A stretch of DNA of 64,000 bases from Pachyseris speciosa (lineage: Eukaryota > Cnidaria > Anthozoa > Scleractinia > Pachyseridae). The number at the start of each line of letters is the position of its first letter. Within the stretch, counting starts at the first letter, position 1. A program made the translations under genes and the position numbers. The notes under the pieces are model-generated. The model was given only the letters and a program-made list of their open reading frames with translations. It did not search any database and was not told the origin of the DNA. The DNA lies in assembly GCA_016490735.1 (NCBI GenBank), contig JAEMWC010000247.1, positions 810,001 through 874,000 on the forward strand, written 5' to 3'. Positions 1,990-40,568 of the stretch are shown here, in pieces.

Positions 1990-4900
1990 TAATTAGTCTC
2001 TCCTATTCCATCTTACGAAATCAACTGCATGTGGCCCAATTGGTTGTTTTTCAAAAAATATACACTCAAACACGTAATACTGTTTGCTGCTCTTTATTAG
2101 ATGTTTCAATTTTACGGTAGTTGTTTGAGTTTTGTATAAACACTGTTTTAAGAATAAAACAGGGGGTTTGAGATTTGACATAAGGCTCCCTCTATTAAGC
2201 CCCCGTTAATGAAACCTGAAATTAAATAAGCCCCCCGTTCGCTTAATAGAACCTTTATGGTATACAGCAAGTATAACGGAAGCGTGCAGTGTGAAAGAAC
2301 GTCAGCAAACGGGCGTATCTTATCTGAACTTGATTTGGGCTGAACAAAGCTGAAATGGGAAACAGTTTACAACAATACAGACTTGTTGTTGGCATGCATT
2401 GCGTTTATTTAGCTGTCAGGGAGTATCGAGGATGCTTCTAGGGAAAATTCGGGTGTTCTATGCTCCTTTTGTTTTACTTAGAAGCGATTTATTTACCAGT
2501 ACTGAAACGTGTGATTCGTTATTTCGAACTAACAAACATGAATCGTCTCTGGCTTCCACAAATATTTTTGTATCGCTTTTATATCCCTCAATTAATTCGA
2601 CTTGCTAACGCCAGACCCAGTTGTGACTGACTTTGATTCCAGTAAAACTATTTGTGCTCCTTACTCACAGTCTAGTATTCTTTTTGCTGAAAACCGAGGG
2701 AAACAATGCGTAGCAAACTCTTAACTTTCAATTGTTTATCAACACCATAGCCTGATTCCGGCGCAGTGCTGCTGATATGGCTCAGATCGTACACATAAGT
2801 AATTCTTTATACAGTTTCTTGTCAAATGCACTCGGCAAACTATTTTGCTTCAGTGTGAATTACAAGAGAATGTGTCCGTATTCAACATTGCTTTTAGCTT
2901 GCTGGAAGGGAATGTCAAAGGTCATTTAATGAATAGCATAACTCAAGCTCATGAAGGTTTATAACCGTATGTTCCTTTAATGGAGGCCCTGGAATCCATT
3001 CTTTCCTACATGAATTATGAATCATGTTTGCTTACAGTTGAATATAGCACTCTGGCTATTTTTAAAAACAAGCAAGAGTTTACTCAAAATTTTTGATTCC
3101 CACAGCAGAAAATGTTTAGGGGCAATTTGATATGTCAGGAACTGCATAAACGTATAACTTCATATAAGAATGTTGTCGAAGAAACACAGGTATCAATAAA
3201 TTGTTTGTTACCCCATGCTTTCATACATCCTTCAGCAAAAAATAAATTAATTGAAAATATTCAAAAGACAACAAGTGCCCATCAAACCACTTCTGATTTA
3301 AGTAATCTACAAAAGACTAAGATATCAAACTTGCAATAAACAGTCTTGACTTTTTCTTTAAAGCCTCGCCGTCTTTGAATAAATTCGTTTTAGTACTTGG
3401 GTTTATATTTATATATGCATTCTTCATATTTGAAATAAAATGACGAAGGGTCACTACAAAATTTCTCATTCTTCAGAAGTAAATATACATTTATCACATG
3501 TCCGACCACGTATGCAATGCGTACCTATTTTTTTTTAATATTGCAGCTTGTTTGTTTTAGCACGTTTAGTATATATTACCCCTGAGAATTTCCCTGTTGA
3601 CAAAAAGGACAGCCCCCGTTTTCCTGACACAGTTGTCTTTGCAATCAGTGACTTAGTGCAGAGAGAGAACAATGGCACTGGGTATTGAATAGTAAATAAT
3701 GTACTTATTATCGGCATGTAAAGATAAAATAGTTAACCTCTTTCCGTTTCAAAAAGTTTGCAATTAGAAAAAAAATTAAACGCCTTCAATATTGACTGGA
3801 AAGGTCTTCAGAGCTTTGGCAAGCCACCCAAGTATCTTTGTCAATGAATGTTTACTGACATAGAGCTTTGCTTTGGTGAGTAGCCGGAAAATCACTCTAT
3901 CGATCGTAAGGAATCTGGGATATCTCATGTAATGGTAATCAGAAGTTCTTTTATCTGGGTGTTTACTGTAGCTCTACAATATGAATCTGCTGTTAATCGT
4001 GACTTGTCCAAATAATGTCAGTTTCAACTAACAATGTGAACCGTCTTTCGAATTCCTAAACATTCTTGACGAACGTTGAACACTGCCACAATTCGAACTT
4101 GATTTGGAAGCCAAAATCAATCTCCGATCCCCCCTAAAAGATTAGTAAAACCGCAATCCACTGGAAATACAAGCTCCGTAACTCCGTGGAGATTTCATTC
4201 TAAACACGAAATTTGAACAATATTATTTGAAAAATCTGCCGACCAGTAGACCTTTTCAGCCTCATCTTAGCATGTTGACAAATGGTCTTGGATGAATTTC
4301 CAAAGCACTTTGAAAGAATATTCTAGTTTATTGTTGGCGTACATAAAACATTATCTTCTTAATAATTTTCATGAAGCGATAAAGAATAGATTATACACTA
4401 TACATAACAATGGGTTGAAACTGAAGTAATAACTTTAGCACTTATATCACAGACAACAACGAAAGTAAAGTGGGCATAATAATATAGATAATTAGAAAAG
4501 CCAGGGGCTCTTTAACCTATAATAACTTTGAAAAGAACAAAACTGTCGCTACCACAGCTTACTGAAGAATACAAAATATTGATATAATTTGGGTACTTTT
4601 TGCACTTTGAGCTAAAGCTGGACTCTTGATTGTTGAATTTCATAACCTCAATTAATATGGTTAAGTTTGCTGTTGAAGAGGGCTGATGATTTGCTTCCGC
4701 GCTGATAAATTCGTTGTTTAGCTAAAATTAAATGAGTATGAATGTATTAAAATTATATGTATGAACTGCGAATTAACCGGCGCATGAAGATGTGACTGAA
4801 TGCTACTTAACCCTTTGCGGACGGACGTTTTGTACGTCTTTTTTGCGATTTCCAAGGTTTGAAGGTCAAATCGATCTCGCTATTCCATATAAGGAGTTAC

Positions 4901-6991: not shown

Positions 6992-9356
6992 CATATACTG
7001 ATTTTGCAAGGACGTTACTACAGGGCACAATTTCAGTGGTTATTTAAACAAAGCTTGATATGATCTTTAAAATTAAAGTTCACAACACAATTAGTCAGCC
7101 TTCGACCAGTAAGAGAGCGAATCCTGGAGAGGGGATTGCGTGACGAGCCAAAACAACGTCTGCGTGGGAGGCTATGAAAGCTGTAGCTCGTTGTTGTTGT
7201 TGAGGTCTGTTAGTTCTGTCTGACCTGTTCCTGTCCCCTTTTCGTTAACAACTTCAATCAGCCGCCTTTTTGACGCATTAGTTAATTCCTCTTCTTTACC
7301 TGGAAGTTTTTTTCTCAGTTCTTCAAGTCCTGTCTTGATTTCCTCTTTTTTTATCTTCCGTTTGTCGTCTAAGGCAGCTTTTGGTTCTATGGTGAAAGAA
7401 AGGATGCAACTGTGGCACACATCGTTTTTCTTCGAATATTAATCACATTCGCATATTAATCACATTTTTTAATAGCCCATTGCTCTCATCTCGTTGCTTT
7501 CTCAGCTCGTCTCGTTCATCCTTAACCTTTTTTTTTATTCTTTCTACACGAGATATCTAATTTTCCCTTGCAGCCTCCTGCTTCTTTGTTGCTCTACGTC
7601 GATTTTTGCCATTTCTGCGCTTTTACCATAAAAGCTCTAATAAGCCCCCCTCCCCCTTTTCGGACATGAGATTTTGTAATTAGTCACTCCTATTCCCTCT
7701 TACAAAATCAACTTCACGTGGCCCAATTGGTATGTTTTTCAAAAAATATACAATCAAACACGTAATACTGTTTGCTGCTCTTTATTAGATGTTTCAATTT
7801 CACGGTAGTTGTTTGAGTTTTGTATAAAAATGGTTTTAAGAATTAAACAGGGGGTTTGAGATTTGACATAAGGCCCCCTCTATTAAGCCCCCGTTAATGA
7901 AACCTGAAATTAAATAAGGCCCCCGTTCGCTTAATAGAACCTTTATGGTATACAGCAAGTATAACGGAAGCGTTCAGTGTGAAAGAATGTCAGCAAATGG
8001 GCGTATCTTATCTGAACTTGATTTGGGCTGAACAAAGCTGAAATGGGGAACAGTTTACAACAATACAGACTTGTTGTTGGCATGCATTGCGTTTATTTAG
8101 CTGTCAGGGAGTATCGAGGATGCTTCTAGGGAAAATTCTGGTGTTCTATGCTCCTTTTGTTTTACTTAGAAGCGATTTATTTACCAGTACTGAAACGTGT
8201 GATTCGTTATTTCGAACTAACCAACACGAATTGTCTCTGGCTTCCACAAATATTTTTGTATCGCTTCTATATCCCTCAATTAATTCGACTTGCTAACGCC
8301 AGACCCAGTTGTGACTGACTTTGATTCCAGTAAAACTATTTGTGCTCCTTACTCACAGTCTAGTATTCTTTTTGCTGAAAACCGAGGGAAACAATGCGTA
8401 GCAAACTCTTAACGTTCAATTGTTTATCAACACCATAGCCTGATTCCGGCGCAGTGCTGCTGATATGGCTCAGATCGTACACATAAGTAATTCTTTATAC
8501 AGTTTGTTGTCAAATGCACTCGGCAAACTATTTTGCTTCAGTGTGAATTACAAGAGAATGTGTCCGTATTCAACATTGCTTTTAGTTTGCTGGAAGGGAA
8601 TGTCAAAGGTCATGTTAATGAATAGCATAACTCAAGCTTATGAAGGTTTACAACCGTATGTTTCTTCAATGGGCCCGAGGCCCTGGAATACATTCTTTCC
8701 TACATGAATAATGAATCATGTTTGCTTACAGTTGAATATAGCACTCTGGCTATTTTTAAAACAAGCAAGAGTTTATTTAAAATTTTTGATTCCCACAGCA
8801 GAAAATGTTTAGGGGAAATTTGATATGTCAGGAACTGCATAAACGTATAACTTCATATAAGAATGTTGTTGAAAAAACACAGGTATCAATAAACTGTTTG
8901 TTACCCCATGCTTTCATACATCCTTCAGCAAAAAATAAATTAATTGAAAATATTCAAAAGACAACAAGTGCCCATCAAACCACTTCTGATTTAAGTAATC
9001 TACAAAAGACTAAGATATCAAACTTGCAATAAACGGTCTTGGCTTTTTCTTTAAAGCCTCGCCGTCTTTGAATAAATTCGTTTTAGTACTTGGGTTTATA
9101 TTTATAAATGCATTCTTCATATTTGAAATAAAATGACGAAGGATCACTACAAAATTTCTCATTCTTCAGAAGTAAATATACATGTATCACATGCCCGACC
9201 ACGTATGCAATGCGTGCCTATTTTTTTAATATTGCAGCTTGTTTGTTTTAGCACGTTTAGTATATATTACCCCTGAGAATTTCCCTGCTGACAAAAAGGA
9301 CAGCCCCCGTTTTCCTGACACAGTTGTCTTAGCATCTTTAAAGACTGCTATCAGTG

Positions 9357-9388
<32 letters not shown>

Positions 9389-14236: not shown

Positions 14237-14314
14237 CTATGGTGAAAGAAAGGATGCAACTGTGGCAAACATTGCTTTTCTTCGTTAATTAATTAGTCAA
14301 TTCCTCTTCTTTAC

Positions 14315-14398: not shown

Positions 14399-14476
14399 CT
14401 ATGGTGAAAGAAAGGATGCAACTGTGGCAAACATTGTTTTTGTTCGTGAATTAATTAGTTAATTCCTCTTCTTTAC

Positions 14477-14560
14477 CTGGAAGTTTTTTTCTCAGTTCTT
14501 CAAGATCTTTCTCGATTTCCTCTTTCTTTTTCCGTTCGTCGTCTAAGGCAGCTTTTTGTT
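14477..14560 (-). CDS. 84-nt coiled-coil cassette, copy D, third
   Basis: Third repeat of the cassette in the same 162-bp rhythm, again 84 nt and phase 1-1. One substitution (QKAALDD) distinguishes its start. Confidence 0.65.
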
Positions 14561-14639
14561 CTATGGTGAAAGAAAGGATGCAACTGTGGCAAACATTGTT
14601 TTGCTTCGAATATTAATCACATTCGCATATTAATCACAT

Positions 14640-14787
14640 TCTTTAATAGGCCATTGCTCTCATCTCGTTGCTTTCTCAGCTCGTCTCGTTCATCCTTAAC
14701 CTTTTTTAATTTTTTCTTCACGAGATATCTAATATTCCCTTGCAGCCTTTGCGCTTCTTTGTCGCTCTACGTCGATTTTTGTGATTT
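14640..14787 (-). pseudogene. 3'-truncated coiled-coil exon, copy D
   Basis: Counterpart of 449-618 in copy A: acceptor GCGCAG, then a frame related to the 189-nt exon that loses its 3' half after LLKN. No donor is visible. Confidence 0.5.
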
Positions 14788-15452
14788 CTGCGCTTTTACC
14801 ATAAAAGCTCTCTTCTTTTAACCCCCCTCCCCTCCCCTCTAATAAGCCCCCCTACCCCTTTTCGGACATGAGATTTTGTAATTAGTCACTCCTATTCCCT
14901 CTTGCGAAATCAACTTCATGTGGCCCAATTGGTATGTTTTTCAAAAAATATACACCCTCTATTAATAAGGCCCCCTCTATTAAGTCCCCGTTAATGAAAC
15001 CTGAAATTAAATAAGCCCCCCGTGGGCTTATAAGAACCTTTATGGTATGCAGAGTGTATAACGGAAGCGTGCAGTGTGAAAGAATGTCAGCAAATGGGCG
15101 TTTCTTATCCTGCACATGAAAGCAACTAAACTAATGGCAGATTGTTCAGTGCATGGGGTTGAAAAAGCATGAAGAGTTAATAAAAGCTCCTCAGTAATGG
15201 CTGCAAATGCAAATGCTATATGAAACATATAATTAAGTCTCATCTGCATCGTTAAGATGAGATTTGTACTTCTCTACTTTTGTAAAAAAATTTTCCTTCA
15301 CTTAAAACGTAACTCGAAAGGCAAAAAACAGGATTAAAAACAGATAAACGTTTTTTGTACCATTTAATAAGCCCTTCTTCTTTCTTGATTTCACTTTTGA
15401 TATGCAAAGAGTTCAAAGTGTCGTGTTTTCTTTAATAGGTACAAGTTGCCGA

Positions 15453-15646
15453 CTAACCTTCTATTGTCTTCGTTTTGCCAACAAGGTCTTCCAGAAGCTT
15501 TTTGAGATCATTCTTTAGCAGTTCATTGCTGTCATCTAGTTGCTTTCTCAGCTCGTCTCGTTCATCCGCAACCGTTCTGAATTCTTTCTCCAGATATCTT
15601 ATTTTCCCTTGCAGCCCCGCGCTTCTTTGTCGTTCTATGTCGATTT
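15453..15646 (-). CDS. 189-nt coiled-coil exon, copy D (nearest to the CARD exon of gene 2)
   Basis: Acceptor TTCTTTTTTCAATCGCAG, frame IDIERQRSAGLQGKIRYLEK continuing through ADERDELRKQLDDSNELLKN to KTKTIE, donor GAAG|GTTAGT at 15,457/15,458. Length is 189 nt (nine heptads), phase 1-1, with an immediate TAG if unspliced. It would be the exon following the CARD exon at 30,388-30,708: GCA G joined to AA gives Glu and keeps the frame. The intervening intron now contains the 14-kb element. Confidence 0.7.
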
Positions 15647-15919
15647 CTGCGATTGAAAAAAGAATGTAATTGTATCAGACGCTTTTACCATAAAAGCTCT
15701 ATTAAGCACCCCTTCTTCTCTATTAACCCCACCCCCTCTCTAATAAGCCCCCCTCCCCCTTTTCGGACATGAGATTTTGTAATTAGTCACTGCTATTCCT
15801 TCTTGCGAAATCAACTGCATGTGACCCAATTGGTTGTTTTTCAAAAAATATATACTCAAACACGCAATACTGTTTGCTCTTTATTAGATTATTTATTAGA
15901 TTATTAGTTTTGTATAAAA

Positions 15920-15960
15920 TAAAGCCTTTCAATCTATTTTGTGTTTTTCCAAACTGGCAA
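15920..15960. repeat. Left terminal inverted repeat of the 14-kb element
   Basis: Pairs with 29,850-29,888 in inverted orientation. The best block is TTTGTGTTTTTCCAAA, starting about 18 bp from the tip at both ends. Confidence 0.75.
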
Positions 15961-16496
15961 TTTCCGCTAAATTAGGCTCTTTTTGTATTACTCTTGCTCT
16001 TAATTCGGCAAAAAATGGCCTTCATATGCTGTGTGCTTGAAACAAGCAGAGATCACTTCTATTTTAGACCTTAAAACGGTGTATTTTCTTAAGATATTGA
16101 AAACCATGTTTTGGGTGAAAATCAGAGGTACAGGTAAAATACTCTTTTCAGCAGTATATAAAACACTAATATTCTCCTGCACTGCAAATATGACACTGTT
16201 TTTGTTATAAAAGGTAGTGCCACATGACATAATTTTTATTGCAACTATTGCACTGACCCCTGCACAGATGAAATTTGTGCAGAGTTGCCCTAAAACAACA
16301 TTATTGGTGTTCTAAAGTTGATGAAACATCATAAACTACATCTGGTTACCGCAGAGAAATCCCTACTGTGCTACAAAAGGTTTAAGGACTGAAAGTGTTG
16401 TGTATGCAAAATATGCTCACTTTCAGTGAATTTTAATTGTTTATCATGCATCCTTCTGCACCCTGTAATCAGACCACAGGCCACAGACTGTGATCA

Positions 16497-17110
16497 GACC
16501 ACAGGCCACAGAATTTCTGCGGCCTGTTAACAGAAGACAAGCCGCAGAAATTCTGCGGCCTGTGAACAGCAGACAAGCCGCCTGATCACAGGCCGCAGAA
16601 ATTCTGCGGCTTGTCTTCCATTCACAAGCCGCAGAATTTCTGCGGCCTGTGATCAGGTGGCTTGTCTGCTGTTCACAGGCCGCTGTGAACAGAACACAGG
16701 CCGCAGAAATTCTGCAGCCTATGAACAGAAGACTGTTCAGTCTGTTCATAGGCCGCAGAATTTTTGCGGCCTGTGAACAGAAGACAAGCCACCTGATCAC
16801 AGGCCACAGAATTTCTGTGGCTTGTCTTCTGATCTGTTCACAGGTCGCAGAAATTCTGCGGCCTCTGTTCTGTTCACAGGCTGCAGAATTTCTGTGACCT
16901 GTGAACAGAACACACGCCGCAGAAATTCTGCGGCTAAATGTCTTCTATTCACAAGCCGCAGAATTTCTGTGGCCTGTGAACAGAAGACAAGCTGCAGAAA
17001 TTCTGCGGCCTGTGAACAGAAGACAAGCTGCCTGATCACAAGCCACAGAAATTCTGCGGCTTGTCTTCTGTTCACAGGCCACAGAAATTCTGCACCTGGT
17101 GATCAGACCA
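16497..17110. repeat. Left subterminal palindrome array
   Basis: About 15 copies of the palindrome GCCGCAGAA-W-TTCTGCGGC (9-bp arms, one central A/T base) spaced about 40-50 bp. Spacers are made of CTGTGAACAGAAGACAAG, CTGATCACAG and their complements, and are themselves partly inverted about each palindrome. Apparent reading frames in both strands here are by-products of the repeat. No CRISPR features are present. Confidence 0.9.
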
Positions 17111-17628
17111 CAGGCCGCAGAAATTCTACACCTTGGGATCAGAACACAGGTCACATAAAGCCTTCTAATGTGTTGAAAGATCTAAGAAATGCTAGGTCAA
17201 ATAATTTAATGTGTTCAGTTTAGAATATTTAATATGCAAAGAACTTGAAAAATATTATAAAAGCCTGTACGCTGTACACTTCAAAAGATGATTTAAAAGA
17301 AATTACCACAGAAGAACAAGAGTAATTGAATGCTCCCTTAAATTAGTACAATGTATGTGTAATCAAATGGTGACAAGTAAAATTAGAGAATAATTTCACA
17401 TGCATTTTGTTCAAATTCTAATAATTATTTTTCCATACTTTCACAAGTATACCATTTCATTACCTCTGTATTAATATCATGGGTGACAAATTATGCTCAC
17501 AAGTTGCTGGGTTTTTCCATTGTTTTGCAATTTCACATTTGAAATACTATTATAAATTAATGCTGAAATTTTGTGCCATAATTAAGGAATAATTTGTCAC
17601 CCATGTTATTGCAGTTGAAATGTAATAA
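17111..17628. other. Stretch between the left array and the methyltransferase-like gene
   Basis: AT-rich sequence downstream of the minus-strand gene, presumably its 3' untranslated region and flank. No other feature seen. Confidence 0.4.
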
Positions 17629-20151
17629 TCACTGTGATCCTGAATCTTTGGAGCTTGTATTGTCACTTTCATCAGACTCAAGGCCTGCAAAAATGCTTTC
17701 AACTGTCACTTTCATTTCATTTTGCATATCAGAGGAGGCAGAACTGATCCACACAGCATTTCTGCCTCCTTTGAGGGCTGTGACAAAGGTACCCCCACTT
17801 TTGCTGTCCACATCAACAACTGTGTCTCCTTCTCTGGAGAGATGCTTCACCAGCCAGTAAAAGGCACTGTCTGGCAATGACTGGTTTGGGACGTAATCCA
17901 CTGTAATGACATTTTCTACAGATGCCGGCATTGAGAAATGTCTGGTGGTGACTTGTCGTGACACTGAGCAGTGCCCAATGACAAAGGTCTTGAGTGCTTC
18001 TCTTAAATAAGGACCTGAAACAAATGAAAAGGGAAAACATAACATAACAAGCTCTTTCTATTTACTTCAGTTTGTAGTGGTGATGTTGAAATTTAACACT
18101 TCAACACTCTTCTTCAGGTTAGATTTTTATTGATCAACGGTCTCTAAACAGAGGAGACCAAACAGATTTGAATAAAGAGTAAACAGCAGGCTACATGTAG
18201 CTATCCCTTGGTCAGAATTCTAGTTGGCCAATTAACTGCTTCAAAGTTAATGGAGGCCTGACTGATTTTTTAAATGCTGTCATTAGTTTCAAATTGGTAT
18301 AATTATACTCATAACTTAGATATGGTGATCATAAAAAATTCAACAGGGATTGGAGGTTTTGAATACATGGAAGAATAAAGAACGTCTTTGGATTTTGCAA
18401 CTTGATTGTCTGACATAAAAAATAATAATACAAAGTAATACAGTCGAACCTCGATTATCCGGACTCTTGGGGACTGGGCTGAACAGTCCGGATAATCGAG
18501 AGTCCAGATAATTGAAAATATGAATATTAATGAGCCAAAACTAAAACTGAATGACTTGAAATTTCACATTGAAACAAAGAACACCTGAGCAAATCAGTGC
18601 TCAGTGAAATGCAGTTGCAGTACATATGTAGTACGGTGCGCATGAGCTCAAAACGCGAACAGATTTGTGTTTTGAAGCGAAAATAATTCAGTTTGAACTG
18701 GAGTTTTATTACTTAATTTGAAGGGAAAAAGTTTTGTTGCAAATCTTAAATATGGCTAATTAATATTCAGGAAAAACTGGGACCAGCTAAGCAAGTCCGG
18801 ATAATCGAAAAATCCAGATACAATACAGCTCAAAGGTAAGCGTCCACGTTAACGCGCTTCAAACGAGTTATAAGTTAGAAATGCGTTAACGCGAGTCCGT
18901 TTATCTATAACGCGCTTCAAAAGCGCACTTGAAGCACAACTCATTAGTATGTATAAGCTGGCGTATTGTTCTTGGTTCATTGTTCGATAACACGGCAACT
19001 TTTGTCATTTTTCAAAGTTCCAATAAAGAAATACAGTTCACTCTAAATCAGGAAAATCGAAGAATTTATCCGATTTCCAAGTAAAGCATGATATTTTCAT
19101 CAAGCGACTGCATTTACAAAACAAACTACCAAAGTATTAAACCGGTGAGAAAGCGACTATAAAAAATTGCCCGGCGGCTTGCGTAAATGAACGTCGCGAC
19201 GTACTTAACTGTTCATAATTGTGATGCCATCGATTCTTTTATAGTTTATGAAGTAGGCTCTTTTTGCATACGGCTACCATGTTTTCAAGGATTTCAAGTA
19301 CATTTCATAAAGAGTCGAGATGGCCGCACCAAATGTAAACAACGCCGCCAAATTTTCAGCGCAAATTTGCATAGATTTGAAGTGATAAATGAACGCGTGG
19401 TGTGTTATTTGATACGTGGCAAAACTCGAGTATTTCATAATCTGTAATCGAGATCCAGATAATCAAGGTTCCACTGTAATAGGACTTATCTGGATGGCTA
19501 ACCAAGCAAATGTAACAAATCATAAATAAGCAATCACATTACCTGTCTTCTCACGTCTTTGGGGAACATTTTGCACATAGAAATGTGCTGTTTGGGTGTC
19601 TGCAGCTCCCCCATCTTTCATCTTTTTCTTCACTGCCTGGACATCATCAACATTTGTGAATAACACAAGGTTGAATGATGTTGTCTTTGTGAAATTTAGT
19701 CTGGATGTAAGGCTAATCACATCAAGAACATTCTATGGACAAAGACATAAACAAGGATCAAATTCCATTTGCTCTAAAGTATGTGACCAAGATGATAAAA
19801 ACATTTGCCAATGAACTTGACTATAAAAATGAATCTGATAAGCACCAAAACCTGGGGGTCTATTTGATAAAAATGTTGCTTTGCAGTTCTGGTAAGATGC
19901 CCTCTGTCTGTCCACTGTAGCATGTAAGAATATGAGTTTAATACAAAAATAAAAACTCTGTAGAGGACATTAACCACTGCTGTCTTTTTGCAAGAATTCT
20001 CAATAATTATTTTACGCTGTCACCATGATTTAACATATTTTTTTATACATTGACCTTACCTTACAATCATCGCCTGCATTGCCTATGGCCAAAAATGCAC
20101 CATGAAAATGAGGTAACTTTACTACAGCTGCCTGTTCCACCATGCTAAATC
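17629..20151 (-). CDS. Three-exon gene with a C-terminal methyltransferase-like motif, function unknown
   Basis: Exons on the minus strand are 20,151-20,060, 19,732-19,543 and 18,014-17,629, each with clean splice signals (TTTTCTCAG|, AAG|GTAAGG, GTCCATAG|, ACAG|GTAATG, TTTGTTTCAG|). Phases are 0 at the first junction and 1 at the second, so the frame stays open to a stop. From the first in-frame ATG (20,143) the product is about 219 residues. The C-terminal third reads YWLVKHLSREGDTVVDVDSK, then SGGTFVTALKGGRNAVWI. This is the layout of motif I of DNA amino-methyltransferases (helix, D-x-F-x-G-S-G-T, then a second strand), but the usual DPF-x-G-SGTT core is degenerate and no DPPY catalytic motif was found in these exons. 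The tail is rich in D, S and E. More 5' exons are likely. A transposon-borne or domesticated methyltransferase-fold protein is an inference. Confidence 0.65.
18441..19476. mobile_element. Tigger/pogo-type non-autonomous element
   Basis: The left end CAGTCGAACCTCGATTATCC and the right end GATAATCAAGGTTCCACTG are inverted repeats, flanked by TA on both sides (18,439-18,440 and 19,477-19,478). Tc1/mariner-class target TA and the CAGT start fit the pogo/Tigger group. It has no transposase and sits in an intron of the methyltransferase-like gene. Confidence 0.75.
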
Positions 20152-20355
20152 CTGAGAAAAGACAATCATCGCCTTTGCTCCATGTTTTCCATCCAGAAGC
20201 GGCCGTTTTAAATGCTTGCCTTCCCGATCACATATCTCCCGATCACTTGAATCCAGCCAAGAACAGCCATTTCAAAATAGAGAGAATGTATGAGATCAAA
20301 GAGCGTGCGTGACGTCATGCAGTAACAGTCCTTTCCAAATGTTTTACATGAATGC

Positions 20356-21410
20356 GGCGGGGCTAAAATACAGGTCACAGGTCACAGGTCACAGGTCACA
20401 GGTCACTGGTCACTGGTCACTGGTCACTGGTCACTGGTCACAGGTCATTGGTCACAGGTCACAGGTCACTGGTCACTGGTCACTGGTCACAAAAATAAAG
20501 AAAACAAAAAATAATTTTAAAATGGTTAAAACAAAAAATAATTTTAATTAAAATGAAAGAAAAATAAAAATGTCAAAGATAGTAAGGAAATAAGACTACA
20601 AAAATCACGAAAACTGACTGCAAATTACAAAACAAAAACAGCACACCCTACCCCCGAAGCGAAGGGATGTAGTCATGTGATCAGTTCTCGAGCACATAGT
20701 AGCTAAGATGACTGACTACGAGGTAAGTCGCTTGTTGCCTTTTGTTTTTGTCCGGTATAATTTGCTTTCATTTCTATATTGTGTTCCCAAAAGCTGGCGG
20801 TTAGTGAACAAGGACAAGTGTACATTTCTGACAATTCGCTTATTTATTTATCGGCTTCAAAGTACAGGTGATAAGTATAGTTTTGGTGCATTAAATCCTG
20901 GGTGAAGGTCATGCAGTTTTTTTGCAATATATTCAGCCTTCTGTTGGCTGCTAATTAACATATAAGCGAAGGGGGGAAATTTAGAGTGGCAAAAAAGTTT
21001 GCAAGAAGAAATTGTAAATTGCTGCTCTCGCCAATTTAATTTATCGCATTTGAACTTGAATCTTTGGCCTTGATTTGTTTGCTCGGCTACGCAGTTAATT
21101 CGTTCATGGCAAAAGTTGATCCGTATGCGCAATGAATCAAAACAGAAGACCGAATTAATTTCGTGAATGTTCCCGTTTTATCACGTTCTTTATTTTCGTC
21201 AGTTGCTGTCACTTAAGTGCCTAAGAAGGATGACAACTTGCTGGCAATATTCACTGATTGGGAAGTGTAAGACATGGCTCAAAGCCATTTTTTAATTATT
21301 TTTAAGTTTTATAACTATTTTTAATTTTCTTTATTTTAATTTTTTAGGACCTGTGACCTGTGACCTGTAACGTGTGACCTGTGACCTGTGACCTGTATTT
21401 TAGCCCCGCC
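20356..21410. mobile_element. Terminal-inverted-repeat element with GGTCACAGGTCACTG minisatellite ends
   Basis: The left end GGCGGGGCTAAAATACAGG recurs inverted at the right end (CCTGTATTTTAGCCCCGCC). Inside each end lie tandem 7-8-bp units GGTCACA/GGTCACT (20,372-20,491; inverted 21,346-21,395). Target duplication is unclear. The interior has a plus-strand ATGACTGACTACGAG immediately followed by a perfect donor GTAAGT (20,708-20,724), a possible orphan first exon. Confidence 0.6.
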
Positions 21411-21632
21411 GGAGTACGTTTCGTGTATCATTCTCTCACGATCTTAAGATCATTAGCAAGTGTTTTTCCCTAAAGGATTTCCCTCTCAGATTGAATTCTG
21501 TCGACGCGCGAAGCGCGCGTTGTCTTTATCGAAATCTCAAACGTACAATTGATGGCTTTTCAAAACGCTTTCAACAGGCGACATTAAAATTAAAAACCTC
21601 GAATTGTCAATCTGGGATTGTAACTCACGCTT

Positions 21633-22344
21633 ACCTTCAGCAATTTCTTTTCAACGGAAAAACACGTTTCAGATGAACTTGATGTTGATGCTGGTACGCT
21701 CTCTGCTCCGATGATGTTTTGGAAGTGCTGAACTCTTTCGCCACCTTTAAACAAAAAGGCAATATTTGACGAGACTTTGATGAATCAGAGCTTCTTTTCT
21801 ATACCTTTTCCCATTTCTCAGGAGCACAAATTGCCACAGAGATAGACAAGCTCGTAGAAATCTCTTCACCTGACTTCTTTCAGTTCTCTGTCCCGAATGC
21901 CGAGTCGGCGAAACGTAAAAGGCTACTACCGGTAGATTAATAAGCTTATTGTAATGAAACAATAGGCTATAGTCAATTACTAAGCTAGAGTAACATTAAA
22001 TTGAACAAAGAATTAAATGTAAATTCTTATCGTGAGAAAATAAATTTACCATGCTTTCCAAGTCCGTCGCGCGTCAAGTCGTTCGCATCCGTTCGCATCG
22101 AAAAACGCGACTCATCCCTATTTGTACTATAAATTGTGGACAGCTGCATGATGAGCTAAGTCAAAAATATAAGCTTAAGCTTAATTCGGATGGGACAGAT
22201 ATCAAAGGCAACCTCTTTCCCCGAAAGAGAAATGTCTAATTAAAGAAACAGTAAAAGATTCACGCTTACCGGCAACTTGATGATGATCACAGGCTTTTCG
22301 GCTTTTTCCGGTCGATTAATGTCATGATAGATACTACACCACAT
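21633..22344 (-). CDS. Possible upstream exons of the methyltransferase-like gene
   Basis: Three candidate minus-strand pieces are seen. (i) 22,344-22,270 starts with ATG (MWCSIYHDINRPEKAEKPVI) and ends at CCG|GTAAGC. (ii) About 22,235-22,037 ends at CATG|GTAAAT and is open except for one TAG. (iii) 21,745-21,633 lies between TTTAAAG| and AAG|GTAAGC and encodes GERVQHFQNIIGAESVPAST. Pieces (ii) and (iii) join in phase 1. The joins from (i) to (ii) and from (iii) to the exon at 20,151 are not in phase with the simplest splice sites, so the model is incomplete or the gene is damaged. Confidence 0.35.
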
Positions 22345-22542
22345 GCATCCTCATCAGGTAACTGTGTGTGTGTTTTTTTATTTTTTGGTGAAATTTACCC
22401 ACTATTCCACCGACGCTTTCTTTATAAAAGATGTCGAGGTTTATGAAATGATTCAGTCCTGAAAAAAAATTTGGTTGAATTGTGGAAGTGACTGAAGCGC
22501 GGCGTCAATGGAATAACCGGAAATTGTCACCTATATTTCCCG

Positions 22543-24538
22543 GGGTGTAGACAAAACCTGGGCCCAGGCCCATGGGCTAGCCCATGGGCCACCCTATGGG
22601 CTACTCCAAAAAATAAAAATAAATAAATAAATAATAGTAATAATAATAATAATAATAATGATAATAATAATAATAATAATAACTACAATGATAATAATGA
22701 AAAATAATAATAATAAAAGCTCATGCGTTTGTCTTGTAACTCCTATGTAATTAGAGAGACATGAAAATATGATCAAAGATTACTGTAAGTGACTTACATC
22801 ACAGCGCTCGCGCCCAGTTTATTTTATTTATTTATTTATTTTTTTGGTAGAGAGGTGTAGCGGGGAGGGGGTTGGGTGCTGGGGGTATTTCTGTGGTTTT
22901 ACGACCCAAGTGATTTTTGTCTTTGAGACAAAGCTCATGCGTTTGTCACGTAACCCCTCAAATGTAGTTAGAGAGAGACATGAAAATTTTCTGTGGTTTT
23001 ACGACCCAGTTGATTTTTGTCTTTGAGATATCCTGTGTGTTCTACTCCCGGGGGTGGGGGTGGGGTACTCCCTTATCTGGGCTATATAGGTATGTGCGGC
23101 CCCGTAGGGTATAGTTTTTTAGCCGTTTTTGGTCTGAAATAGGGTATTGATTTTAACCATTTTGATCTGAAACAGGGTATGATTTGTGCACTCCAGTCTT
23201 GAATTTGAAATGTTTTTTCGAAGAATCTACTTCTTCATCATAGGATCAGAAAATACCATCAACAAAAGCCCTTCTTTTTGTCTTTTTAATATGTTTACGC
23301 TAACCGTGTACGTCAAATAGGTCTGAAATAAAGTAGGGAAAATCGCAGATTTTGGTCTGAAATAGGGTAAGGGTTTTAGACACCCAATTTTTCTGGGAGT
23401 CTGGGAGTACCCTCCCCCCCCCCCCCCCCTGTTTTCAGGAAGGCCCCATCTTGCTGCGTGTGAGAACTTACATACCAGCACTTGGTAAGCATTGTTGAGG
23501 AGTAAACTAGACAACGCGCACCACATTTAAAGCAGTTACGCTGCGTAATACGCGGAAATTATGTGCGCTGAATTAGACAACTCCACAACTCTACCAAATC
23601 AACAAAGTGCTAGAAATTTTTGAGGATCTTTCAACAATAAACAGTATTAAATGTGTGCGCAATGTTTCAATGTCTGTCATCCATGCATGGCACTTTCGAT
23701 AAAGAGTAGAATGCAAGAGATTGATCAACACAGATCGGACACGTAAAAGCACCGCATGTGATCAACCAGTCACAGTCATTTACTTGGAGAAACAATGAAA
23801 CAATCAAAATGAAAAACGATATCCAACAATAAACAAAAAAAAGGCAAATACACCAGTAGAACCCCGAAGGGGGAGGTGGGGGGTACTCCCAGATTCCCAG
23901 AAAAAATTGGGTGTCTAAAACCCTTACCCTATTTCAGACCAAAATCTGCAATTTTCCTTACCCTATTTCAGACCTGACCAAAAAATCGATACCCTATTTC
24001 AGACCTATTTCATGTACACGGTTGGCATAAACACATTAAAAAGACGAAACGAAGGGCTTTTGTTGATGGTCTTTTAGCCTATGGTGAAGAATTAGATTCT
24101 TCGAAAAAACATATCAAATTCAAGACTGGAGTGCACAAATCGATACCCTATTTCAGACCAAAAACGGCTAAAATCCATACCCTTCGGGGCTGCACATACC
24201 TAAATAGCCCAGAAAAAGGAGTAGGGTACCCCCCTCCCCCCGCCCCCGGGAGTAGAACACACAGCATGTGTGTTGTTTGGGATCTCAAAAACAAAAAACA
24301 CTTGGGTCGTAAAACCACAGAAACGCCCCCAGCACCCAACCCCCTCCCCGCTACACCTCTCTACCAAAAATAAATAAATAAATAAATAGATAGATAAATA
24401 AAATAAACTGGGCGCGAGCGCTGTAATGTAAGTCACAGTAATCTTCGATCATATTTTCATGTCTCTCTAACTACATAGGGGTTACGTGACAAACGCATGA
24501 GCTTTTATTATTATTATTTTCATTATTATCATTGTTAA

Positions 24539-24587
<49 letters not shown>

Positions 24588-24678
24588 TTTTTTATTTTTG
24601 GGGGGTAGCCCATTGGTAGCCCATAGGGTGGCCCATGGGCTGGCCCATGGGCCTGGGCCCAGGTTTTGTCCACACCCT
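22543..24678. mobile_element. Foldback element with ~0.8-kb inverted arms and a 9-bp target duplication
   Basis: Left arm about 22,543-23,420 and right arm about 23,868-24,678 are inverted copies of each other; 23,421-23,867 is the unpaired centre. The ends read GGGTGTAGACAAAACCTGGG and, inverted, AGGGTGTGGACAAAACCTGG. TATTTCCCG is directly repeated at 22,534-22,542 and 24,679-24,687. Long arms plus a 9-bp duplication resemble Mutator-like elements. The arms contain (AAT)n tracts, a GC-rich ATGGGCTAGCCCATGGGCC palindrome and a block with GGTCTGAAATAGGGTA motifs. No transposase frame is visible. It sits between the two divergent genes of the 14-kb element. Confidence 0.8.
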
Positions 24679-24773
24679 TATTTCCCGACCGTTTTCATTG
24701 GCTAGTTTTAATTTGGTGCGTGGTTTTAGCAGGCTGTTTGAGCGTTGTCGTTTCATTTGTTTCAGCCGTGAAC

Positions 24774-26520
24774 ATGAATACGGCGTCGAAAAATAAGTCA
24801 CGAGAAAATTTCGCCAACTTAGAACCCTTGATTACTAGCACTCCGAGGAAAGTCAAAGATCGCGTGAGGTGTTTGGATCTGTACGATTCTGACTCCAGTG
24901 TCGCAAGTGATTTCTCTACGCCAAAGAAGCAAGCGCGTAGCGCATCCTCGCCGGCATCCTCGCCGAGTTGCTGGATTAATCTCAACAATACTGACACTTC
25001 CGACCATTCAAGTCACTCCAGTCAAAGTTAGCACAGAGAGCCCTGCTTGCATTGATATAGTGGACAGTGGCGACGAGGAGCAAACTGTCAAAGGTAAGCT
25101 GAAGTCTATGTGTTAAGCTTATCCGTCTAGCCGCGGCTACTTGAGCGATTTTTTGCTCGCGCCAGTGATGCGATTATTTCCAATTTTGTCGCGTCGCCAG
25201 CGCGTGAGGGTGCTACGCTTTTGAAAATTTTTGGCGACAAATTTAAGACCTGTGCAATATAGAAAAACATGGCGGACAACATGATGTCGCGTCGCAAGCG
25301 CGGGAAAAATTGCGGGGTGCTGTTACACGGCCAACTATCTCTTCGATTTATGTCAAGAAAGTTTCAACTTATGAGAATGACCGGTGACTTTTTTCTTGCG
25401 ATATTTTACAGTTTGTATTGTGAAACTCACAAAACCCTGAACACTGAGAATTATTTTCCTTCTCTATTAAGCCCCCCTCTTCAATATTAGGCCCCCGTCA
25501 ATGAGGCCTGGAAATTAAATAAGCCCTCCCCTCCCTAAGGGGCTTAAGAGAGCTTTTGTGGTAGTTAATGTGGATGCTCTGGGTTCACTCGGACGACCAA
25601 CTAGCTAGATTTGTTTTTGAACAGTGGTCCTGAATTCAACAATTAATTCATTAATTCAACTTAATTCAGCTTTTTCTTTTCAGAAATTATTTCACTCCAG
25701 GTCGATGATGAAAGTTGGGCAGAAGGAGGCATGTTAACTGATGGTGATTCATGTGTTAATAACCCCAAGGTAAAAAGAACAGTTTCTTCTTCATTACACC
25801 AAATTAGAAGAGTATATATAACTTGACCCCCCCGCCCCCCCCCCCCCCATGGAATTTGTCATAGGGAGTCCAATTACTATAACCTGTAAATTTTGTTTAT
25901 GTTATCGTTATTAGGCGTTATTAAAATGCAATACATATGGTGAAGTATAAGAAGATAATATCCAGCCATACAAAACTTTTCATATTGAACAATGCTTCTT
26001 TAATTTTTTTAGTCAAGTCCCTTATAATGTATCAGTCATTTCCAAAAGTGCCCATCCTCTCCCCCCCAGCCCCCCCGGGCGAACACCCAGGCATTTGACT
26101 TTTTTTTGAAACATTTTGTTCAAATGCCCCGCTGTGTTTCCACTTTTGACGGTCAAATGCCCTACTGTCAGGGCCTCAAAAAGGGCAAATCAAGTTTAAA
26201 TCTATAGCAAACCACTCGTTGCATGAAGCATTTTGGCACGCTCCCCACTCATAATGAATATTTTATTCTAAAGTTGCTTACCTTGCTTTTTCAAACCAAA
26301 CCCGAACAATTGTGCTCAAAAACTCTTTTCAGAACTCTTTTCTCGGCACTCCAAACTTTGAATAAAGGCATGGGGAGCAGAGATGGCGCAGTGGTGAGAG
26401 CACTCACCTTCCACCAGTGTGGCTGGGGTTCGAATCCCGGACTCGACGTCATATGTGGATTGAGTTTGTTGTTGGTTCTCTTCTTTTCTCTGAGAGGTTT
26501 TTCTCCGGGTTCTCCGGTTT

Positions 26521-26562
<42 letters not shown>

Positions 26563-28156
26563 CACTTAACAATTACTTCAAATAAACAACCACAACAAAG
26601 CCAAGTCATCCATGGCAATGCTCATTACAATATCATAAGCTCTTGCATTTAAGCCCTAAACTAAAGGCATATGGGTATAAGTGATCGCTTTAATCTGATG
26701 TAGCTTCATTCTCTTTTACTCAGAGGGAAAGTTTTCAATTGAAAATAATTTCCCAAAACCATAAAGGATCTGTGAACATTAAATTATCCATTCTAAATCA
26801 AATTTTAATAATCATGGAAATTCAAGCTGTGTGGAAATCCTGCATGATTTATACTATACACTCTTCAAATATCCATAAATCCTAATAATACCTACTCATG
26901 TGACTAAAGAACATTGTTTTAATTTAGTTTTATTGTTTTTTTTTTTTCAGTCTTCACCCACTGGAAAGCCCAACCCTGTCACTCCCTCATTAGCAAAGTT
27001 GGATGTGGATGCTTTGCGGTGTGACATTCCCAAGTATCACCAGAACATGCCAAAAGAGGCAGCAGATGCATGGGAAGGATGGCTCAATCAGTTGGATGGA
27101 CTTACACATGTTTCTGACAATTACAACTGGCCAGTTGATGTGTTAAAGACATCCAATAGGACAGAACCAGCTCATCCAGCTGCCCAAATTTCTCCAGACT
27201 TGGAGTTGCGGGAGAGGGAGACACAGCAAACTCAGGAGGTAAGTAGACAATCCCATATCATTCCACTGTTGGAAGCTGTTACAAGTTATAAAACATCTGT
27301 GAGACTTTGTAGGGAAATTATGGAATCTGTTGTTTGTTGAATTTTTTGAGGATGCCCATTATCAAGTGTGTAAAAAGAGTTTTTAGAGTGTCCTTGGTGA
27401 CAAGAAGATAACCCTTTGTCTTTCTGTTTTAATAAACTGGTCATTTATTTTGAACTGGCTTTCTGTGTCTGCCAGTGTGGTTAAATAAAAAAAATTAAAC
27501 ATAAATTATTAATCCTCAGTTCCATCAGTTATCTGATGGAAGAGGAAACATGGGTTATATTTCTACTGAATATGTACAAGCAGTGGCCACATGCGGTCAT
27601 AGACATTAAGTGTATATGCTACAGGTCAAATTTGATTTAAGTTTAATTTTGATCTAGGAATTGAGGTTCAACCTAGGTTGAAAACGTTTACCCTGAATTC
27701 AAATTTGACCTACAACAGGTACAGGTTTTTAAATTTGTTAAGAGTGCATGGCACTAACTTTGAGTTTGATTGTATAACGCAGGTACACACTGGTCGGTAC
27801 AGTAATCCACGGGAAAGAGAAGATCCAGTTCAAATGACTGATGACTTTCTTGAAAACCTCCAGGATGGTTGTTTGTGGCTGTTTTTCTCGAAAACTATGA
27901 CAAAATGCCGGTCATTGGCAAAGTAACATCTGTTGGAGATACCGATTTTCAGTTACATTACTGGAAAGGATCTTATGGAGGTAGATGGTCTCCCCAACAC
28001 CTCCCATGAAGAAAAGGAGAGCCTTGGCTTGAGGATTTGCCAAAATCATACATTGTTTGCTGTGGTTTTCACCTCACAGAAGATAGCAAGTTCATGCCAT
28101 CTACCAAAACATTTCTGAAAAATAGGTATACAGCTCTAAGAGGGAAGATCAACTGA
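24774..28156 (+). pseudogene. Four-exon plus-strand gene of the 14-kb element, unknown function, disrupted
   Basis: Exon 1 (24,774-25,093) begins MNTASKNKSRENFANLEPLI, is Ser-rich, and needs a one-base shift near 25,015 to continue into ACIDIVDSGDEEQTVK before AAAG|GTAAGC. Exon 2 (25,684-25,769) adds LQVDDESWAEGGMLTDGDS. Exon 3 (26,951-27,238) is clean and contains KLDVDALRCDIPKYHQNMPK and AWEGWLNQLDGLTHVSDNYN. Exon 4 (27,783-28,156) contains YSNPREREDPVQMTDDFLEN, a one-base shift near 27,870, then VAVFLENYDKMPVIGKV and HYWKGSYGGRWSP, an in-frame TGA at 28,007, and an ending with CCGFHLTEDSKFMPSTKTFL. Introns 1-3 are in phase (1, 0, 0). The VAVF...IGKV...HYWKG pattern looks like a small beta-barrel (Tudor/SH3-like) reader, but I cannot name a family. 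Three lesions suggest a recent pseudogene, or assembly errors in a live gene. Confidence 0.6.
26372..26563 (+). mobile_element. tRNA-derived SINE with (TAA)n tail
   Basis: The A-box region GATGGCGCAGTGGTGAGAGC and B-box region GGTTCGAATCCCG are both intact. A short body follows with CTCCGGGTTCTCCGG, ending in a (TAA)n tail at about 26,522-26,561. It lies in intron 2 of the plus-strand gene. Confidence 0.8.
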
Positions 28157-29035
28157 AGAGTGTTCTGCAAAAGGAGCGTACATGTATATCACTTTTTTCC
28201 AACACATCCAACTCACCAGGTACTTTGGCATTTGGACTGGAAATGGTGTCAGAAATGAGGTTCTGTATACTTTTTTTCGATTAGATAGCTAGGATCCAAA
28301 GGATTCACTTATGACTGATGCCCAAAACTCAACAAACAGAAACAAAATGATCTGATGCATGGTTGATTTCTTTTGTTTTGAGTTGGTTCAGTTTTAGGCA
28401 AAAGTCATATGCTTATTTTTGCTGAATCCAGGCCTTTAAATCACAAATTAAGTGCACAACTTTATCTCTGACACCATAACCAAAGCAGAGCAAATTAGAG
28501 AGGATTGGATTTTAAGGCCAAAAATATACAGCCCTTTTGCAGAATACCCTTCAACGAATTGCTATACATGACTGGTTGAAGATTGTTTTAATAATTTTGA
28601 GCATTTCCTACTACTGTTTTGAAGAAGAAAAAGAGATGGAAAAAACAATGTTTCATACTCATATGCAATTCATGGGCTCAGACCAGAATATTCTAAGGCC
28701 ATATCATGTAGGTTGCCAAGCTTTTGTCTGTTGAAATGCTTTCCCTCTGTTTGTAATCTGCTTTTTAGCCCAGGTATATATAAATTTTACTGTGAAAAGG
28801 TATATTCTTAAAGATAAGCTGAAACAGTTTATGGTTCAATCATGTAGTGCCCAAACTGTGACAGATAGCCTCTGGTGCTTATTGTATGTGTTGTTTAACC
28901 TTGCTATGGTTACTTCTACATTGCTGTAATCAAGATTTTTGCCCTTACATTCTGTATAATTATTTCCTATTAAATTATACAGTGCATGAATCAATTATTG
29001 AGGTACTACAGCTTTGTTTGATGGCAAGACCAGTG
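28157..29035. other. Stretch between the plus-strand gene and the right array
   Basis: AT-rich, presumably 3' untranslated region and flank of the plus-strand gene. No other gene or repeat recognised. Confidence 0.4.
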
Positions 29036-29039
29036 GGTA

Positions 29040-29640
29040 ATGGGCCGCAGAATTTCTGCAGCACCAGTCAGCAGTGGGCCGCAGAATTTCTGCGGCACCA
29101 GTCAGTAATGGGCCGCAGAATTTCTGCGGCACCAGCCTAATGGGCCGCAGAAATTACCAGCTGGTGCCGCAGAATTTCTGCGGCACCAGTCAGCAATGGG
29201 CCGCAGAATTTCTGCGGCACCAGTCAGTAATAGGCCACAGAAATTCTGCGGCACCAGTCAGTAATGAGCCGCAGAATTTCTGCAGCACCAGTCGGTAATG
29301 GGCCGCAGAATTTCTGCGGCACCAGTTGGTAATGGGCCACAGAAATTCTGCGGCACCAGTCAGTAATGGGCCGCAGAAATTCTGCGGCCCATTAGGCTGG
29401 TGCCGCAGACATTCTGCGGCCCATTACTTCACTTCACTTCACTTATTTATTTGATGTAACCTCGTTCAAATGAATGATGAATGGTGCCGCAAAAAATTCT
29501 GCGGCACCAGTTGGTAATGGGCCGCAGAATTTCTGCGGCACCAGTCAGTAATAGGCCGCAGAAATTCTGCAGCACCAGTCAATTATGGGCCATGGAATTT
29601 CTGTGCCAGTCAATTATGAGCTGCAGAATTTTCGTGTCAG
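29040..29640. repeat. Right subterminal palindrome array
   Basis: About 15 copies of the same palindrome as at 16,497-17,110 (GCCGCAGAA-W-TTCTGCGGC) but with a different spacer, ACCAGTCAGTAATGG, at about 32-36-bp spacing. A short non-array piece with CACTT repeats interrupts it near 29,425-29,485. It lies about 250 bp inside the right end of the 14-kb element. Confidence 0.9.
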
Positions 29641-29849
29641 GATGCAGGATTTATTTGAGATTTATTTCAATGAAGATAAGACTGCATGGTTCTTGTCAGT
29701 CTATTTCAGTCAATTGTTGCAGAGCTGCTTTTTATATAATATTTTTTTTGCTATTTTTCTCTGAATTCATGAAGTGTCCGCAATAATAAGATAATAATTG
29801 CAAGCTAAAAAAATATGCAATCAAAATTTACTTGTCAACAACGATAAGA

Positions 29850-29888
29850 CCAATTTTGGAAAAACACAAATTGTTTTGGAAGGCGTTA
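29850..29888. repeat. Right terminal inverted repeat of the 14-kb element
   Basis: Inverted match to 15,920-15,958, ending GGAAAAACACAAATTG then TTTTGGAAGGCGTTA. Confidence 0.75.
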
Positions 29889-30387
29889 AAACTGTTTTAA
29901 GAATAAAACAGGGGGTTTGAGATTTGACATAAGGCCCCCTCTATTAAGCCCCCGTTAATGAAACCTGAAATTAAGCCCCCCGTGGGCTTAATAGAACCTT
30001 TATGGTATACAGCAAGTATAACGGAAGCGTGCAGTGTGAAAGAATGTCAGCAATGGGCGTTTCTTATCCTGCACATGAAAGCAACATTTGACAAAACTTC
30101 TAATCTGTTGTCGCTAAGTTCAAAAGCTGAAACTTTAAGTACTGCTGTTCAGAGGACAATATAAGCTTAATGAAATTGAAGATTACTTACGAATTTGTAA
30201 CAATAATTTCGTGAACGCCCTTTTATGGTTGGAAGGGGCGAAGATGGCTAAAATTTCAGACTAAATAGCAACTCAAACGTCGCTATCAGTGCCGTTGATA
30301 AGAAAGGCAAAAATTTTAAAAACCCTAAAAGAGAAATTAGAGAACGCAACTATCAGAATTCTTAATTTATATCATGCAATAACTTAC
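29889..30387 (-). other. Intron of CARD gene 2, CARD-proximal part
   Basis: Begins ACTGTTTTAAGAATAAAACAG and is homologous to copy A at about 2140-2340 and 800-975 (CCCCCGTTAATGAAACCTG, GTATAACGGAAGCGTGCAGT). It is the missing continuation of copy D's flank, separated from it by the 14-kb element. The part nearest the CARD exon resembles the intron of CARD gene 1 (about 46,420-46,570). Confidence 0.75.
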
Positions 30388-30708
30388 CTGCCTTATCAAG
30401 AACCGTAATAAGATGTGACGAAACTTCTTTGAGTGCTTCCCTAAATATGTAAAAGGCTTTGTCGCCTCTTGTTGGTAATATATCTAAAAGCTCTTCACAT
30501 CGCTTTCTTCGAGTGGGCATGGACATAATTTTCTTTTCCTCTCCTGGAGTAAATACGAATGACATCTTAACTAAAACTTCTTCCACGTCCATGTCTTTCA
30601 CAAGATACTCCGTGGCAGTCTGTAAGATTTTTCTATGGCTGTCTTCCATTGGTTTATCTTTTGTTGGATTGGTTCTTTCAGTTGCGATATTTCCTAAGAT
30701 GACCACGG
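30388..30708 (-). CDS. CARD exon of gene 2 (CARD/coiled-coil adaptor, 5' part)
   Basis: After a TTTCTTTTAG acceptor the frame runs to GCA G|GTAAGT (phase 1). It contains a CARD: KILQTATEYLVKDMDVEEVL, then TRRKRCEELLDILPTRGDKA and FYIFREALKEVSSHLITVL, matching the six-helix death-fold pattern with the typical LLDILPxRGxKAF stretch. CARDs bind other CARDs in caspase and innate-immune signalling complexes. The start used by gene 1 (ATGGCAACTGAAA) is ATCGCAACTGAAA here, so translation must begin at MEDSHRKILQ, about 20 codons later, or in an upstream coding exon. Next coding exon by phase and intron homology is 15,646-15,458. A Polinton lies directly upstream and may have removed the promoter region. 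Confidence 0.75.
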
Positions 30709-30951
30709 CTAAAAGAAAAAAGTGTAATAAGAGCTCATGATAAGAAAGTAGACATCAAAAAGCTTACTTCTTTCGGTTAGAAACATTTTGACATTAGAAA
30801 AGTGAAACTGAGGTCTTTAGAACTTCATGAACTCACCCAAGTCCCTTTGTCAACGAAATGGTCACTAAATTGCAGTCTCGCCGTATTGACTTGCCTTCAA
30901 AATCGATGCGTAGATCAACAACAACAACACTAATTAGTTCAACCCCGCGAT

Positions 30952-40527: not shown

Positions 40528-40568
<41 letters not shown>

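Follow-up and report, generated by a model that had tools for sequence, protein, structure and literature searches.

We analysed a 64-kb window of the Pachyseris speciosa genome (contig JAEMWC010000247.1, positions 810,001 to 874,000, G000:C247:810001-874000; assembly of 984 Mb in 2,368 contigs), which carries a non-autonomous DNA element of 13,967 bp at window positions 15921..29887. Our results indicate, with a probability of roughly 0.83, that this element belongs to a giant DNA transposon family with two genes, of which it is an internally deleted copy, and that it was likely mobilised in trans, through cut-and-paste, by the predicted DDE transposase DUF7869 of 24-26-kb relatives that have closely similar ends and reside in the same genome. 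The observed part of this explanation comprises insertions that recur in the genome, ends that match between copies, a target duplication of 4 bp, subterminal arrays and exons in common, and the occurrence of DUF7869 exons inside relatives.

A repeated element with inverted ends and a 4-bp target duplication

The ends of the element were placed by alignment to its relatives. A preliminary description of the window had set them at 15920..29888, and we moved them by a few bases because the relatives show AACGCC as the family end. The left terminal inverted repeat (AAAGCCTTTCAATCTATTTTGTGTTTTTCCAAA, family form AACGCC..) occupies 15921..15953 on the plus strand and the right one (AACGCCTTCCAAAACAATTTGTGTTTTTCCAAA, read inward) 29855..29887 on the minus strand. 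The two inverted ends agree at 29 of 39 bases, a slight correction of the 30 or so counted before, and the 16 exact bases reported then stand (TTTGTGTTTTTCCAAA). They are bordered by AAAT (15917..15920) and AAAA (29888..29891), equal at three of four bases; the 4-bp length of this target duplication was set by 17 of 20 sister copies. As already proposed, the empty site is kept in tandem copies A (GTTTTGTATAAACACTGTTTTAAG, 2129..2152, plus strand) and B (GTTTTGTATAAAAATGGTTTTAAG, 7817..7840, plus strand), both of which match the two flanks of the element without the insert. Copies A and B are diverged paralogues whose matched flank pieces are 73-94% identical, and by eye they hold one base beyond the expectation for a 4-bp duplication. 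With its inverted ends and matching uninterrupted sites, the inserted element of about 14 kb is real.

Searches of the assembly with the first 181 bases of the element gave 38 matches, 13 of them (the window included) over at least 160 bases at 84-100% identity and 25 weaker, and its last 241 bases gave 28. Ten two-ended copies, again with the window, were obtained from 20 fetched stretches, their sizes being 3.1, 4.8, 5.8, 6.7, 10.3, 12.0, 14.0 (window), 14.6, 14.6 and 18.8 kb. Right ends occur at eight further places (C1234, C256, C188, C75, C71, two on C307 and one on C425), of which C188 and C256 were opened. Furthermore, the terminal pattern was found at 302 places when up to 3 mismatches were allowed, and its reversed control at none. 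The suspicion that the ends might never be paired in inverted orientation elsewhere is refuted by these inverted pairs, which recur in the assembly. Among the matches listed, the majority represent a sister subfamily characterised by the end AACGCTTTCC, whose 33-base ends are identical in most of the exact matches listed; the same matches include 28 inverted pairs, and 14 of the 27 measured (the C419 pair excluded) span 8.5-9.6 kb, the sister pair sizes clustering near 9.2 kb. To judge from these sequences, movement of the sister subfamily in the host genome may be recent.

Comparison of flanks, which had been suggested as the way to define the target duplication, settled its length at 4 bp. 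When 30 flanking bases were compared at either side, an exact 4-bp repeat was present in 17 of 20 sister pairs and a 5-bp repeat in none, and 3 of 380 deliberately mismatched flank pairings agreed. The 17 duplications are of mixed sequence. The large copy on C1654 has the exact duplication GGAG, and the C270 copy also has one of 4 bp. Within the window subfamily, as judged by eye, five of ten copies have exact duplications (GAAT, AAGT, CAAT, CAAT and GAAA), three show one mismatch (AAAT/AAAA in the window, GTAG/GCAG and CAAC/CAAT) and two have no definable duplication. The C425 and C307 copies are not independent in this count, since they have flank sequence in common, and the duplication of the C216 copy is unreadable because the contig stops one base beyond its right end (G000:C216:1044134).

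The subterminal arrays noted earlier were borne out as two series of a 19-bp palindrome (GCCGCAGAAWTTCTGCGGC; sites counted at up to 3 mismatches in 19). The element holds 27 sites and the remainder of the 64-kb window none; one shuffle of the element also gave none. Fourteen form the left array (16505..17132), irregularly spaced at 36-72, and 13 the right one (29044..29573), with a spacing of 34 in nine of 12 intervals. In the C216 copy the palindrome core occurs 71 times, 25 of them at the left and 46 at the right. The arrays are common to the two subfamilies; their spacers differ.

DUF7869 and the two genes of the family

The two genes announced for the window are both there, and both are broken by frame shifts and stops: an accessory gene (gene 1) and a gene (gene 2) that is reduced to its outer exons and has lost DUF7869. 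The first exon of gene 2 (MNTASKNKSREN..DSGDEEQTVK, 24774..25095, plus strand, as are all its exons) has one frame shift near 25007 and is unbroken in copies C768 and C161; aligned with the first exon of C216 over 67 columns, it is 39% identical (E 7e-9), at a score attained by none of 500 shuffles. It is followed by an exon found in C419 too (EIISLQVDDESWAEGG.., 25683..25772), by one lying past the position of the C216 DUF7869 exons (SSPTGKPNPVTPSLAKLDVDALRCDIPKYHQNMP.., 26951..27241; 56% identical to its C216 counterpart, E 1.2e-28) and by the last exon (VHTGRYSNPRE../FVAVFLENYDKMPVIGKV..HYWKGSYGGRW.., 27783..28141), with one frame shift and one in-frame stop, which through its relatives can be assigned a domain resembling the NIPBL C-terminus and which the last gene 2 exon of C216 matches at E 1.2e-42. 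In total, gene 2 of the window has two frame shifts and one in-frame stop, and the same exons are held by other copies. A DUF7869 exon is absent from the window copy, a search with its truncated gene 2 found no homologue at E 0.001 among 4,245 candidates, and a Pfam scan of the window gene pieces gave no family for three queries.

The missing middle of the gene was found in larger relatives. C216:1018069-1044133 is a 26-kb copy with sister-type ends, where gene 1 occupies the minus strand and a long gene 2 the plus strand; in this gene 2, exons between the first and the last two match Pfam DUF7869 (PF25273) at E 4.8e-33 and 1.1e-11 (114.8 bits, curated cut-off 26). Seven C216 exons are 49-95% identical to the Montipora/Acropora DUF7869 proteins P0022 and P0023, and all six junctions among them permit an in-frame GT-AG intron without a stop. 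The 24,465-bp copy at C1654:20920-45384 has both ends and DUF7869 matches inside, at 39655-40975. C256 and C188, tied to the family by window-type right ends, contain DUF7869 exons with stops or frame breaks, and C419 keeps one DUF7869 exon; copies of both subfamilies include such exons. The assembly holds at least 157 DUF7869 matches, those linked to family ends being the ones in C216, C1654, C188 and C256, and 14 control genomes hold none. DUF7869 homologues numbered 221 at E 0.001 or better, from several eukaryotic groups, and no mention of "DUF7869" was found in the literature searched.

These results change the earlier picture of the family in several respects. The absence of a known transposase holds for the window copy, yet a candidate, DUF7869, is present in C216 and C1654 (both sister) and, broken, in C188 and C256. 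Likewise, the class is indeed unrecognised by the family libraries scanned, as the superfamily assignment left open before implied, yet a candidate transposase can now be named in relatives. A repeated family of large DNA transposons is confirmed, and "undescribed" applies to it insofar as the searched literature never mentions DUF7869. The window copy, in turn, is no complete representative of its family: with both genes broken and the DUF7869 middle missing, it is a defective deletion derivative.

Modelling and alignment predict for DUF7869 an RNase H-like core with a near-invariant acid triad in a D-D-E arrangement, and from this fold and triad we predict that it is a DDE enzyme. In the numbering of P0023 the triad falls on D264, position 351 and E390; most homologues have D at position 351, P0023 itself H. 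Foldseek support for the fold is modest; no other family stood above the DDE rows among the structure matches, which we did not count as evidence. At its C-terminal end the protein carries a domain with homology to the C-terminus of the cohesin loader NIPBL (profile E 2.4e-12; C216 exon alone 3.4e-4); in the model this domain adopts a BAH/PWWP-like fold. The 45-residue last-exon piece of the window, taken alone, gave no match in a PDB search.

Gene 1 lies on the minus strand. In the window it consists of a first-exon remnant with one internal stop (MGKGIEKKL*..FKGGERVQHFQNIIGAES.., 21635..21814; 48% identical to the C216 exon in tblastn, E 2.6e-12), an exon with a frame break inside (LLDGKHGAK../VEQAAVVKLPHF..GDDCK, 20060..20199; tblastn with Acropora P0001, two frames), a further exon found with the same query (NVLDVISLTSRLNFTKTTSFNLVLF..REKTG, 19541..19732) and the last exon (GPYLREALKTFVIGH..REGDTVVDVDSKSGG.., 17629..18018), which encodes a weakly methyltransferase-like C-terminus. 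The exons from 20199 to 17629 match coral proteins annotated as "uncharacterised" (Acropora millepora LOC122949960, 58%; Montipora foliosa, 60%). Homologues are also present at four Acropora palmata loci, and their location on contigs of different length suggests that gene 1 is multicopy there too. The window copy gave no match to the N-terminal exon kept in copy C41, and C216 and other copies have additional gene 1 exons. Weak matches to N6_N4_Mtase were obtained for a C216 exon (E 6.8e-4, 20.1 bits, Pfam cut-off 26.7) and for six of 18 gene 1 relatives (best E 0.002; P0002 E 0.14). The catalytic motif IV, [DNS]PP[YFWH], is absent in all 21 gene 1 relatives, most of which are fragments and only two of which (P0001 and P0002) appear full-length, and [DNS]PP[YFW] occurs in none of the three frames on the strand of gene 1 in C216. 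By eye, one gene 1 exon of C216, C768, C840 and C43 has a ParB-like look; it had no Pfam, NCBIfam or PDB match (best PDB E 0.84) and is absent from the window copy. A PDB search with the gene 1 profile yielded no match, and the AlphaFold model of the protein had a predicted local distance difference test score (pLDDT) of 52.7.

Mobilisation, rival explanations and known superfamilies

If DUF7869 is the transposase, its protein would pair both ends and cut at AACGC, and insertion at staggered cuts 4 bp apart would create the duplication. The palindrome arrays would be putative binding sites for the DUF7869 protein or the gene 1 protein, and defective copies (the window, C270 and a 1.2-kb copy) would move in trans. 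The gene 1 protein could be a methyltransferase-derived DNA-binder, no longer methylating, that would mark or regulate the ends of its own element; of all the steps proposed, this reading of the element by its own gene product has the least support.

Movement in trans is likely to be common, since neither C270 (9.3 kb, read) nor the sampled 7.5 kb of C141 contains an intact gene. The same observation, together with the modest Foldseek support, would also fit DUF7869 being a passenger, that is, an accessory or regulatory protein with an RNase H fold in a family moved in trans by another transposase. We consider this improbable: leaving aside the gene in the C419 nested insert, DUF7869 alone, among the proteins examined between such ends, combines a predicted RNase H-like core with a near-invariant acid triad, and its exons recur in both subfamilies. 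A misassembly, or a segmental translocation without transposition, might be suspected from the tandem paralogue array around the window element and from the flanks shared by C425b, C425c and C307, yet it is hardly conceivable in view of the 302 terminal matches, the exact duplications in 17 of the 20 sampled pairs and the recurring sizes near 9.2 kb.

The weightier question is whether only the DUF name is new, the family being a coral branch of one of the short-duplication superfamilies catalogued in Repbase (Sola, Academ, Ginger). We regard this as a serious possibility, a little short of an even chance. Ginger1 duplications are given as 4 bp in PMC10045372, and the Sola1 element of the brown alga Ectocarpus, Sola1-1_Ec32, is strikingly similar in layout: according to PMC12477816, it measures 21.5 kb and carries, opposite to the transposase strand, a gene with ParB and DNA-methyltransferase domains, predicted to make N4-methylcytosine or N6-methyladenine. 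The coral family shares with it the giant size and an opposite-strand accessory gene, whose product has a DNA-methyltransferase domain in Ectocarpus and a weakly methyltransferase-like C-terminus in the coral; it differs in its host and in that its gene 1 relatives, mostly fragments, lack [DNS]PP[YFWH]. A giant layout with an opposite-strand accessory gene is thus not unique to the coral family, and the same source describes defective giant families in the Ectocarpus genome, presumably moved in trans. On the other hand, the AACGC.. ends are not known to resemble those of Sola, Academ and Ginger, and the mean size of curated Sola1 and Academ elements from bivalves is about 5.4-5.6 kb (PMC10294476).

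Tentatively, and with somewhat less than even confidence, we propose that DUF7869 serves as DDE transposase to a superfamily of giant eukaryotic DNA transposons that has so far gone undescribed and has relatives in corals, sea anemones, sponges, molluscs, echinoderms, hemichordates, lancelets, liverworts and Chromera. In corals, its members would have subterminal landing strips, made of dozens of 19-bp palindromes, and a partner protein derived from a dead DNA methyltransferase, reading and not writing, and the transposase would have its C-terminal domain in common with NIPBL. DUF7869, so far a domain of unknown function, would thereby become a testable transposase, with a proposed cargo of up to 26 kb of DNA, introns and accessory gene included. 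Whether such accessory proteins bind their own element could be tested simply with the palindrome arrays and the methyltransferase-like partner, and the shared domain raises the question of whether a cohesin-loading factor took over a part of a transposase or the reverse.

Several features agree with class II elements in general: terminal inverted repeats in many copies (302 places, none reversed; ten two-ended copies), a duplication of fixed length (4 bp) and, in C216 and C1654, a candidate transposase between the ends whose DDE identity is predicted; the window copy is without it. CACTA/EnSpm elements have 3-bp duplications, CACTA ends and subterminal repeat arrays thought to bind the transposase. 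The coral family likewise has short-repeat arrays inside both ends, whereas its ends are AACGC, its duplication is 4 bp and its 19-bp palindromes are often 34-36 bp apart. With Mariner/Tc1 and retroviral integrases the DUF7869 protein shares the predicted RNase H-like core and D-D-E triad; it is, however, larger, has an invariant CxxC and the NIPBL-like C-terminus, is associated with a 4-bp and not a TA duplication, and showed no sequence match to any Pfam transposase or integrase. The 17 duplications, being mixed in sequence, do not conform to the TTAA of piggyBac and Kolobok. Kyakuja-Dileera-Zisupton (KDZ) elements are also giant, with accessory genes tied to DNA modification, but their duplications are 7-8 bp and Kyakuja-1/2_LB lack inverted ends (PMC12730594), in contrast to the 4 bp and inverted ends of the coral family; no Pfam match to KDZ was found in the window gene pieces, ten C216 exons, P0001, P0002, P0023 and P0024. 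The piggyBac-derived coral CMITE elements, described in PMC2872659 as about 100 bp long with TTAA duplications, resemble the window copy as non-autonomous coral DNA transposons, moved in trans as the window copy likely was, and differ from the giant family, with its variable 4-bp duplications and other ends. Finally, Maverick/Polinton elements, which encode a DNA polymerase B of their own and have 6-bp duplications (PMC10045372), do not fit the 4-bp length, and no polymerase match was found in the scanned window gene pieces and C216 exons.

Neighbouring features and individual copies

Two stretches of the window element are probable later insertions. The first (20370..21396), edged by inverted 7-bp arrays (ACAGGTC/GACCTGT), lies within 20355-21411, a segment present in none of nine other copies. 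The second (22555..24680) has long inverted arms (GGGCCCAGGCCCATGGGC..), and its stretch is present in 0-2 of the nine.

Some copies showed peculiarities of their own. Positions 7457-17437 of the C419 element form a 10-kb insert, perhaps a further large DNA transposon, that has inverted ends of its own (TTATAAGGCGCAC.., by eye) and a reading frame of 688 residues; the gene was rejected as the family transposase because this insert occurs in none of nine other copies. The C141 inverted pair (G000:C141:1049799-1077927) spans 28.1 kb with a perfect AAAT duplication; the 7.5 kb sampled contain no palindrome core and no transposase exon, and its size may accordingly stem from nested insertions. Genes are unreadable in parts of C161 and C43 because of runs of N of exactly 7,500 bases (element 1157-8656) and exactly 5,000 bases (element 2612-7611), respectively. 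In C216, the contig stop one base past the terminal repeat looks as though the repeated ends broke the assembly. The same copy has at concatenated positions 15938-16597 an open exon resembling DBF4 (4f99 E 1.9e-4; BRCT 0.02, below cut-off), with no match among the 141 collected proteins, possibly a captured host gene fragment inside the element. C270, the only one of the ~9-kb sister copies read for genes, was rejected as an autonomous element, only a broken gene 2 tail being found inside; around element positions 3040-3240 it shows, by eye, two inverted tRNA-like stretches (GTTAGCTCAGTTGGTAGAGCACTGC).

Outside the element, the minus strand holds a CARD exon at 30365-30754 (Pfam E 2.9e-12), which places the element downstream of this exon. 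An integrase-like rve frame (33188-33730, plus strand, E 3.4e-5) and a DUF1758-like frame (37026-37541, minus strand, E 3.1e-4), both below cut-off and near the element, are perhaps remnants of other mobile elements. A second CARD exon is present at 46518-46877, also on the minus strand (Pfam E 7.1e-11), and the surroundings of both CARD exons are partly duplicated in the window.

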